Source: Clostridia bacterium
GTDB lineage: Bacteria > Bacillota > Sulfobacillia > SLMV01
Assembly (NCBI GenBank): GCA_003566675.1
Contig: PXCI01000327.1
Location: forward strand, 1 to 33,389
DNA: 33,389 bases
Direction: 5' to 3'
A program made the translations under genes and the position numbers. The notes under the pieces were generated by a model. The model had not been told where the DNA came from and made no database searches. It was given only the letters and a program-made list of their open reading frames with translations. Shown in pieces: positions 5,423 through 9,816 of this stretch. Within the stretch, counting starts at the first letter, position 1, and the number at the start of each line of letters is the position of its first letter.

Positions 5423-5502
5423 TGAAGAAATCGTCGGTGGCTCATCTCCGGGCGTCGGGGCACGGGTTGGTCGCGATCAGAGGCGAGTCGTTTCATGTTG
5501 CG

Positions 5503-5519
5503 TTGTGCCCAGGGCACAA
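5503..5519. promoter_or_regulatory. Perfect inverted repeat, candidate operator upstream of the DUF134 gene
   Basis: TTGTGCCC-A-GGGCACAA is an exact 8+1+8 palindrome 41 bases before the DUF134 start codon. Because DUF134 proteins have a helix-turn-helix, autoregulation through this site is a natural guess. No convincing -35/-10 pair was found around it. Confidence 0.5.
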
Positions 5520-5560
5520 TAGACCTGGGTGGACATCAGTTCGGAGACAGGAGGTGTGAG

Positions 5561-6025
5561 ATGCCCAGACCAACGAAGCGAAGAACCGTAGAGTTCCTGC
5601 CACCGCATGACTGTTTCAAACCGGCGGGAGTTCCGATGGCAGATCTCGAAGAGGTCCGTCTGAGTATTGATGAGCTGGAGGCCATACGTCTCAAGGACCT
5701 GGAGGGATTAGACCATGAAGATAGTGCAGAGCGCATGCAGGTGTCGCGCCCCACGTTTCACCGCATTCTCCGTTCTGCCCATGCTAAGGTCGCGTCTGCG
5801 CTGACCGAGGGCAAGGCCGTGAAGATTGAGGGAGGCACCTATCGCCTGAAGGGGCGCCGCCGGTGCCGGAAATGTGGGAACGTCTGGCGGGAAAGCCCCG
5901 AAGAGACCCCGGCTGCTTCGTGTTCACAGTGTGGCAGTGAGAATGTTGGGCCCGCCGCACCAGGGCGCGGGCGCCATCGACGAGGTCGGCGTGCAAAGGG
6001 CAGAGGAAGAACACCGGGGGGCTGA
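5561..6025 (+). CDS. DUF134 family helix-turn-helix protein with zinc-ribbon-like tail
   Basis: Encodes 154 residues. ATG 5561 follows AGGAGGTGTGAG. The family signature is clear: MPRPTKRR at the N-terminus, EEVRLSIDELEAIRLKDLEG (about 29-48) and a helix-turn-helix around QVSRPTFHRILRSAHAKVA (about 60-78), resembling sigma factor region 4. After residue 100 comes CRKCGNVW...CSQCGSENV, two CxxC pairs that can form a zinc ribbon, and then a very Arg/Gly-rich basic tail. DUF134 proteins are presumed DNA-binding regulators, often found beside NifX/NafY-like iron-molybdenum cofactor proteins; none lies next to this gene. The inverted repeat at 5503-5519 may be its target. Confidence 0.85.
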   Translation: MPRPTKRRTVEFLPPHDCFKPAGVPMADLEEVRLSIDELEAIRLKDLEGLDHEDSAERMQVSRPTFHRILRSAHAKVASALTEGKAVKIEGGTYRLKGRRRCRKCGNVWRESPEETPAASCSQCGSENVGPAAPGRGRHRRGRRAKGRGRTPGG

Positions 6026-6104: not shown

Positions 6105-7118
6105 TCAGACGAAGTACGGTACCGAGGCGCCTGGCAGCATTTCATCAATCTTGTTTCGAAACCATTCCTCGATCTGTTTCATCACCGGCTGGGGATATAC
6201 GTGTTTTCCATAGCCAAACTGACCGTATTTGTACCGGCGGCACTCGTCATCCATGTCCAACTGGGTCCGTGGGAACACCTCGAGGATCCGTTTCCGGGCG
6301 GAGTTGGTGTATCGGTGGGTTATGAGCTCTACGGTGAAGGGCCCGGGGATCCGCTCACCCAGCGTTTCCAGCAGCTCCTGGTAGTCCCGCTGCCAGCCTG
6401 TGTCCGCCATGATCGGCGCTATGAGGAACCCCAGGGGATAGCCTGCGGTCTGTACCTTCACTGCGGCGTTGAGACGTTCCTCCAGTGAAGGGGTCCGGTG
6501 TTCAAACCGCTCGATCACACCCCTGGTGTTGATGCTGAATCGGAACTCTGTGCGCCCTGCGTGCTGAACCTTCAGCAGGGGCTCCACCGATGTGTACTTG
6601 GTCACAAAACGGAATCGGACCAGTGGGCTTGCCGCCGCAAACTCCACGGCTTCACGTAGTGACCCGGTGTATCTTTCGACGCTGAGGGGGTCTGAGGTGG
6701 CAGCACCCTCAAAGAGGGTTTCCTCCGGCTTTCGCTGCTGTGCATACCGGTCTGCCCGGTCCAGGATCTCCCCCGTGTTGACATAGACTCTGATGTAGGG
6801 TTTCTTGCCGAAGTGCGTGTTGAGGTAGCAGTATTGGCACATGCCCGGACAACCGGTAACGAGGGGAAGCTGGTAATGGGCGGAGGGCTTGCACGATTGG
6901 AATTCCAGTGACTGCTTCACTCCCACGACGAGGGTTCCCTTACCCTCGCGGAAGGCCTGTTGGGGCGTCGTCCCCGGGATCCCGGTGACCCTGTTGTGGG
7001 ATCCCGTACTCCTGATGTCTGTGACGCCCTCGTCCCGGAGCTGATCCAGAATCCTCTTGCCCCGGGGGTGTTCGAGGGCATCTTCCTGAAAGTATACTCT
7101 TCGTGGCACAAATTCCAT
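6105..7118 (-). CDS. splB: Spore photoproduct lyase family radical SAM protein, H-donor Cys replaced by Ala
   Basis: Encodes 337 residues from ATG 7118, close to the usual length of about 340; the frame is open 58 codons further upstream without similarity. The radical SAM cluster motif CPGMCQYCYLNTHFGKKPY (Cys at about 90, 94, 97) is followed by IRVYVN, as in spore photoproduct lyase, which reverses the 5-thyminyl-5,6-dihydrothymine lesion in germinating spores. SHNRVTGIPG, RFVTKYTSVEPLL and FRFSINTRGVI are also family blocks. The striking point is FEGAATSDPLS (about 136-146): in Bacillus and Geobacillus enzymes this reads FEA(A/S)CTSDIVG, and that Cys is the hydrogen donor to the product radical. 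Here it is Ala (codon GCC at 6701-6699). It is divergent from the M14 gene. Family call is firm; catalytic equivalence is not. Confidence 0.88.
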   Translation of the reverse strand: MEFVPRRVYFQEDALEHPRGKRILDQLRDEGVTDIRSTGSHNRVTGIPGTTPQQAFREGKGTLVVGVKQSLEFQSCKPSAHYQLPLVTGCPGMCQYCYLNTHFGKKPYIRVYVNTGEILDRADRYAQQRKPEETLFEGAATSDPLSVERYTGSLREAVEFAAASPLVRFRFVTKYTSVEPLLKVQHAGRTEFRFSINTRGVIERFEHRTPSLEERLNAAVKVQTAGYPLGFLIAPIMADTGWQRDYQELLETLGERIPGPFTVELITHRYTNSARKRILEVFPRTQLDMDDECRRYKYGQFGYGKHVYPQPVMKQIEEWFRNKIDEMLPGASVPYFV

Positions 7119-7278
7119 AGACCCACCCCGTCCATTATCTTGTCCCACGGGGGTGGGGATATGAGGCCGCGACATTGTGGAACTCTGCAGGTTATTTCCC
7201 TGCTGTGTCAAAAGAAACCGTATCGGGATATCTGCGGCAGAGGCATTTCCCCGGAAACAATGGAAGGGAAGATGTTCA

Positions 7279-9816
7279 ATGACCATCATCACAGCGCCTG
7301 AGGAGTTTTTCGGCTACCAGCTGGGCAGTGACCGCAAGATCGCTCGCTGGAACGATATCGTGGACTACTTCTATTGCCTGGAATCGGAGTCTGATCGGAT
7401 CAAGGTCATCAACATGGGGGAAACCACGGAGGGCAATCCCTTTCTTCTGACCATCATCTCCTCGCCGGACAATCTTGCGGATCTCGATCATTTTCGCCAG
7501 GTAAATGCCCAGATCAGCGATCCGGAAGGTCTTGCGGATGAGACGATGGGAGATTTGATCCGGGAGGGACGTGCTGTTGTATGCCAGACCATGAGCATGC
7601 ATGCAACAGAGATCGGCGGTACCCAGATGGCCCCGGAATTGGCACACGACCTTCTATCGGACAGCTCGGAATCGACCCTGAAAATTCTGGAGAACGTCAT
7701 CTTTTTAATGGTGCCCTGTTTCAACCCGGACGGGCAGCTGATGGTTGCCGACTGGTACGAGGAGCACCTGGGGACCGAATACGAGGGATGCCGCCTGCCG
7801 CAGCTCTACCATAAGTACGCGGGACACGACAACAACCGGGATGCCTTCATGCTCAACATCCCCGAGTCCAGGTATGTGGGTGAGATCCTATTCCGGCAGT
7901 GGAAACCCCAGGCCTACCAGGATCATCATCACATGGGCAGCTACGGGGCCCGGTTCTACGTGGCACCCTATTGCGATCCCATCCATCCTTACGCGGATCC
8001 CCTCATCTGGCGGGAGCACTCGTGGTTTGGTGCTCACATGGCCTACAAGTTGGAGGAGGGTGAGAAGAAGGGAATCCTCAATGCAGCCCAGTTTCCCGGC
8101 TGGGGACATCTGGGCTTTCACTGGATCACCGCGTATCACAACATAGCGGGGATGTTGACAGAATCTGCCAGCGCAAAACTGGCTTCTCCACTGTACATTC
8201 ACCCGGGGCAGTTGAGAGGGGCAAGTCCAAAGACCCTGCCAGAGTATGAGGCGCAGACGAATTTTCCCAATCCCTGGGAGGGCGGCTGGTGGCGTCTTCG
8301 AGATATCGTGGAGCAGAAAAAGATTGCTGCGTGGGCCCTGCTTGATTTGTGCGCTCATCATCGGGAGACGGTTCTTCGCAATGCCTACAATAAGGCCCGG
8401 CGTCAGACTGAACGTGGCCGACAATCCGATCGGTATGCGTTCGTCATTGATGCCCGGCAGCACGATCCTTTGACCCGAGATAAATTGGTGACGATCCTGA
8501 TCAACCAGGGAATCCAGGTCAGGATGGCTGAGAAGGATTTCGAAGCCGGGGGACGGACCTATCCGGCGGGAACGTACGTGGTGCATGTGGCTCAGCCAAA
8601 GATGGGTTTGATCCGGACCCTTCTGGACAGGACCCTTCATCCTGAAGGCTACTGGACCCGTCAACCCGATGGGTCTCCTGTGGTCTTTGACACAGCATCG
8701 GATACCGTTGCCGAGTACATGGGCGTGACGGTGACGCCGGTGGATCGGGAGTTCGAGGGCGAATTTACGGCCGTCACCAAGGTCAGACCTGCGCGTGGTG
8801 AGACATCAGCGGGTGCCCACGGCTACGTCCTTGACGGGCGCCTGAACGATGCTTACGCCGCGGTGAACTGTCTCCTGCGAGACGGTCACGAGGTCTTCAG
8901 GGCCGAAGAACCCCTCGAGGCTCAAGGGGTGGCCTTCCCCGCAGGTTCCTTTGTCGTGTCTGCTGGCGATGAAGTGGACAGGATCCTGGCTGGGATCGCT
9001 GAGGAACTTGGTGTGTCCTTTCACGGACTCTCATCGCAGCCTGACGTGGACCTGGTGCCCGCAAGAGCCCGCCGCATTGGGATGTACCAGCGCTACTGGG
9101 GCGGAAATGCGGACGAGGGATGGACCCGGTATGTGTTCGATCAATTTGGGTTCGCTTACACGACGTTGATGGACAAGGACATCAGAGCGGGATCTTTGCG
9201 AGAGGCGTTTGACGTCATCATCATCCCCAGTGATCCTGAGTATATGATCGTGGATGTGGATCGGGCCGGTAATGAGACAGCTGCTCGTCACCTGAAGTGG
9301 CTGGAAGACACGGTTCCTCCCGAGTACCGCAGCGGCATGGGTGAGGAGGGGGTGAAGGCCCTCGGAGCGTTTGTGCAGGATGGGGGGCGCCTTGTTGCCT
9401 TTGACCAGGCGTGGTCGGTGGCCGCGGAAGCCTGCGATCTCAGGGTCGAAAATGCTGTAGAGGGGATGGCTTCCAAGGAGTACTACACCCATGGATCTAC
9501 GCTGCATTGCCAGGTCGATTCTTCTCATCCTTTGGGCTATGGGATGCCCGAGGACTCCCTGGTGTTCAACTGGGATAGCGCGGTTTTTGAGATCTGCGAG
9601 ACGGTCTACGCTGAGAGGTATGAGGTGATCGCGAGATACCCCACTCAGAATCTTTTGCAGAGCGGAAAACTGGTCGGAGAGGATAAGATTGCTGGTAGGC
9701 CGGCCATGCTTCGCGTTAGGCAGGGCGATGGAGATGTGGTGCTGATCGGTTTCCGGTGTCAGCACCGGGCACAGACCCACGGAACCTACAAACTCCTGTT
9801 CAACTGCTTGCTGTAG
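7279..9816 (+). CDS. Large M14 family zinc metallopeptidase with C-terminal glutamine-amidotransferase-like domain
   Basis: Encodes 845 residues from ATG 7279 (SD GGAAGGGAAG). The N-terminal peptidase domain has zinc ligands in MHATE (H108, E111), the FNPDG motif (148-152), HDNNRD (183-188) and a candidate third zinc ligand in QDHHHMG (214-220). These are the hallmarks of M14 carboxypeptidases, which remove residues from peptide C-termini or act on peptidoglycan-like substrates. The middle part (about 400-570) has two repeated motifs of the type GRTYPAGTYVV and GVAFPAGSFVV. The C-terminal 250 residues contain a DVIIIPSDPEY strand and a GAFVQDGGRLVAF segment like the class I amidotransferase or DJ-1 fold. 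No signal peptide or membrane segment is visible at the N-terminus, so it appears cytoplasmic. A terminator hairpin follows 50 bases after the stop. Confidence 0.85.
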   Translation: MTIITAPEEFFGYQLGSDRKIARWNDIVDYFYCLESESDRIKVINMGETTEGNPFLLTIISSPDNLADLDHFRQVNAQISDPEGLADETMGDLIREGRAVVCQTMSMHATEIGGTQMAPELAHDLLSDSSESTLKILENVIFLMVPCFNPDGQLMVADWYEEHLGTEYEGCRLPQLYHKYAGHDNNRDAFMLNIPESRYVGEILFRQWKPQAYQDHHHMGSYGARFYVAPYCDPIHPYADPLIWREHSWFGAHMAYKLEEGEKKGILNAAQFPGWGHLGFHWITAYHNIAGMLTESASAKLASPLYIHPGQLRGASPKTLPEYEAQTNFPNPWEGGWWRLRDIVEQKKIAAWALLDLCAHHRETVLRNAYNKARRQTERGRQSDRYAFVIDARQHDPLTRDKLVTILINQGIQVRMAEKDFEAGGRTYPAGTYVVHVAQPKMGLIRTLLDRTLHPEGYWTRQPDGSPVVFDTASDTVAEYMGVTVTPVDREFEGEFTAVTKVRPARGETSAGAHGYVLDGRLNDAYAAVNCLLRDGHEVFRAEEPLEAQGVAFPAGSFVVSAGDEVDRILAGIAEELGVSFHGLSSQPDVDLVPARARRIGMYQRYWGGNADEGWTRYVFDQFGFAYTTLMDKDIRAGSLREAFDVIIIPSDPEYMIVDVDRAGNETAARHLKWLEDTVPPEYRSGMGEEGVKALGAFVQDGGRLVAFDQAWSVAAEACDLRVENAVEGMASKEYYTHGSTLHCQVDSSHPLGYGMPEDSLVFNWDSAVFEICETVYAERYEVIARYPTQNLLQSGKLVGEDKIAGRPAMLRVRQGDGDVVLIGFRCQHRAQTHGTYKLLFNCLL

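Follow-up and report, generated by a model that had tools for sequence, protein, structure and literature searches.

Cys76 as the probable hydrogen-atom donor of a clostridial spore photoproduct lyase with alanine at the Bacillus donor position

Results

The window (the whole stretch of DNA analysed, 33,389 nucleotides of contig PXCI01000327.1 from a Clostridia bacterium) almost certainly encodes a genuine spore photoproduct lyase (SPL) of a spore former within the Bacillota, an enzyme of the Clostridium type in which Cys76 quenches the thymine allylic radical. This assignment is based on the sequence, family membership, a fold match, the sole conserved cysteine outside the cluster motif and the presence of spore genes, and we infer the chemistry from characterised homologues.

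The splB-like gene is located on the minus strand at positions 6105 to 7118 and encodes 337 amino acids, with the stop codon at 6107-6105. Its start at the ATG at 7118 was inferred from the length of homologues; the open frame extends to a GTG at 7292. Residues are counted from this ATG, which gives the same numbering as in the Geobacillus enzyme. The neighbouring genes encode a DUF134 protein (5495-6025, plus strand) and a large zinc carboxypeptidase-like protein of the M14 family (7177-9816, plus strand) transcribed in the direction away from the SPL gene. Unlike in Bacillus velezensis, no SplA-like gene was noticed adjoining the SPL gene.

At the column of the H-donor cysteine of Bacillus (C141) and Geobacillus (C140), the window SPL has Ala140, encoded by GCC at 6699-6701 (minus strand). 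The minus strand reads GAG GGT GCT GCC ACC TCA GAC (EGAATSD, within FEGAATSD), which bears out the alanine reported in a first-pass annotation of this DNA. The CxxxCxxC radical SAM cluster motif (6825-6851, minus strand) is intact, as that annotation also stated: C90, C94 and C97 are all present, together with Y96 and Y98, and this arrangement is invariant in all 153 SPLs aligned. Y99 of B. subtilis SPL corresponds to Y98 of Geobacillus SPL (PMC3742179), and Y98 of the window SPL occupies this radical-relay position. The proposed H-atom donor, Cys76 (TGC, 6891-6893, minus strand), lies within SCKPS / FQSCKPSAHYQLPL, with the first cluster cysteine 14 residues further on. This is the clostridial donor position, where Bacillus and Geobacillus have Ser76.

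The window SPL scores 487.7 bits over its full length against the NCBIfam equivalog TIGR04070 ‘spore photoproduct lyase’ (cut-off 400) and 411 bits against Pfam PF20903 (SPL; cut-off 27). Its AlphaFold2 model has a pLDDT of 95.8 and matches six SPL structures in Foldseek with a TM of 0.97. In a sequence search of the PDB, the top match was 4rh0/4rh1 (~49% identity); the Foldseek title for 4rh0 reads ‘C140A/S76C mutant with bound AdoMet’. This Geobacillus mutant is the closest match by fold as well. The aligned segments of this mutant are SCKPSA with AAATSD (Cys76/Ala140), and those of the next chain, 4fhe, are SSKPSA with AAATSD (Ser76/Ala140). The window SPL has alanine where an enzyme of the Bacillus type has Cys140, and it carries a cysteine at one of the two known donor places (76 or 140) in the form of Cys76.

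The survey alignment comprised 208 distinct SPLs in which the cluster motif is intact. They came from the class of the window, from samples of its phylum and of the class to which a Bacillus-like genome (G197) belongs, and from a few named records. Because sequences were selected by family score and from chosen groups, the following counts do not represent frequencies in nature: Cys76 is combined with Ala140 in 120 of the 208 sequences and with Ser140 in 26 (146 of the Cys76 type), and Cys140 is combined with Ser76 in 61 and with Val76 in one cyanobacterial sequence (62 of the Cys140 type). Cysteine at both positions was found in none of the 208, and cysteine at neither position likewise in none. 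The only columns with cysteine in more than 10% of sequences are 76, 90, 94 and 97 in the Cys76 type, and 90, 94, 97 and 140 in the Cys140 type. Cys76 is the sole conserved non-cluster cysteine of its type.

Four remote homologues (L026, L027, L028 and L170) lack cysteine at both 76 and 140. L026 and L027 are second, remote SPL-like paralogues in genomes that also encode a canonical SPL (G041 and G031, respectively). They combine Asn76 with Ser140, have a cysteine at column 101 directly after the cluster motif (CYCYLLC), and reach 207-230 bits on TIGR04070, far short of the cut-off of 400. These two would be real cases of SPL relatives without the known donors. L028 and L170 score lower still against the window SPL.

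The host genome, a draft of 365 contigs, encodes a single SPL; a second SPL with the Bacillus-type cysteine, suggested as a check in the first-pass annotation, was looked for in this draft and not found. The genome also encodes one Spo0A (Spo0A_C, 147 bits) and has one strong (93 bits) and two weaker matches to SASPs. The natural reading of this gene content is that the host would be a spore former with SASP-coated DNA. With Spo0A, SASPs and one SPL in the same genome, the usual substrate, spore photoproduct, is therefore to be expected.

In phylogenetic trees computed without columns 76 and 140, the window SPL forms a clade with two homologues of the same family, L014 and L015, with a support of 97 to 100%. 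Since all three are C76/A140, inheritance is the most likely origin of this state in the window SPL. L007 and L077, both of the Cys140 type, sit among Cys76 sequences, and 3 to 4 changes of donor state are required on the trees. The Cys140 sequences formed one group in 0 of 200 bootstrap trees; a single Cys140 clade was not rejected by the AU test (p 0.17), and repeated switching is therefore not proven. Of the Cys140-type SPLs, L007 (G044) and L172 (G524) belong to genomes in the same class as the window. The placements of L007, L077 and L172 may reflect convergence, gene transfer or contamination.

Two further positions covary with the donor. Position 93, which immediately precedes C94 of the cluster motif (codon 6842-6840, minus strand; Met in the window SPL), is histidine in all 62 Cys140 enzymes, including the cyanobacterial one, and in 6 of 139 Cys76 enzymes (first set). 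Position 83 in the 62 Cys140 enzymes is alanine in 59, serine in two and glutamine in one. His93 may assist the Cys140 donor from the second shell.

Discussion

Displacement of the donor cysteine is in itself already known, from C74 of C. acetobutylicum SPL and from the S76C/C140A variant of the Geobacillus enzyme. A published account of C. acetobutylicum SPL describes C74 as the conserved cysteine, projected onto the side of the pocket opposite the conserved tyrosine, and reports that this enzyme, with C74 as donor, repairs SP TpT to ~80% TpT and ~20% TpT-SO2- (PMC5368176). We presume that C74 corresponds to alignment column 76, because this column holds the only conserved non-cluster cysteine of the non-Bacillus type and because of the design of 4RH0. 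The C. acetobutylicum enzyme, with its donor across the pocket from the relay tyrosine, would then match the window SPL. The C140A/S76C variant of Geobacillus thermodenitrificans SPL (4RH0, 4RH1) has the residue pair 76/140 and the fold in common with the window SPL. Its pair is engineered whereas that of the window SPL is natural, and residues 83/93 are Ala/His in the variant but Gln/Met in the window SPL. In B. subtilis SPL the donor is C141, and the equivalent C140 of Geobacillus is 4.5 Å from the methylene carbon (PMC3742179). These enzymes share family, cluster motif, relay tyrosine and fold with the window SPL, but differ from it in the Cys140 donor, Ser76, Ala83 and His93.

By analogy with these enzymes, the donor role in the window SPL is most likely taken by Cys76. 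Cleavage of SAM at the [4Fe-4S] cluster would generate the 5'-deoxyadenosyl radical, which would abstract H6 from spore photoproduct. Once the photoproduct has fragmented, Cys76, predicted to be situated across the pocket from Cys140 of Bacillus, would donate an H atom to quench the resulting thymine allylic radical. The thiyl radical would then be handed on, probably via Tyr98, with regeneration of SAM. Repair of spore photoproduct is the natural reading of what the window SPL would do.

The first-pass annotation described the protein as lacking the H-donor cysteine, which is misleading: Cys76 was overlooked, and the cysteine has moved rather than been lost. The wording ‘characterised enzymes’, which the annotation used for the block FEA(A/S)CTSD, covers the Bacillus/Geobacillus type only. 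An alignment with the donor cysteine displaced elsewhere, named there as grounds for giving up its reading, is what we obtained, and the tree and structural model that it proposed yielded the C76/A140 clade with L014 and L015 and the SPL fold. Of its two alternatives, takeover of the donor role by another residue stands, most likely in the form of Cys76, and action on another substrate found no support. Loss of the donor, with the enzyme either turned to a different substrate or dispensing with a protein H donor altogether, is very improbable. Ala140 would fit such a loss, as would the absence of clean repair in B. subtilis C141A (PMC3742179), but Cys76 is present, none of the 208 surveyed SPLs lacks both cysteines, the cluster motif, Y96, Y98 and family signature are intact, and the host genome encodes SASPs and Spo0A. 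A sequencing, base-calling or assembly error at 6699-6701 is hardly credible even in so fragmented a draft, as GCC would require two or three base changes within one TGC or TGT codon, the nearest kin agree, and Ala or Ser is the majority state at column 140 in the sample, always together with Cys76.

The reading with Cys76 as donor removes a false lead, in that a change of substrate does not follow from alanine at the textbook donor position. Among the sampled Bacillota, enzymes of the Cys76 type occur widely in groups other than the Bacilli, and the Cys140 type of the textbooks is largely restricted to the Bacilli. We speculate, tentatively and at somewhat less than even odds, that the donor cysteine switched pocket sides more than once, always as a coupled exchange between Cys76 with Ala/Ser140 and Ser76 with Cys140, the latter with His93 and nearly always Ala83, and that His93 is a second-shell residue needed by the Cys140 pathway. 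If true, such coupled switching would explain why no sampled enzyme has both cysteines or neither. With cysteine strictly at one or the other of two sites across the pocket from each other, nature has in effect set up a neat experiment on how radicals are transferred.
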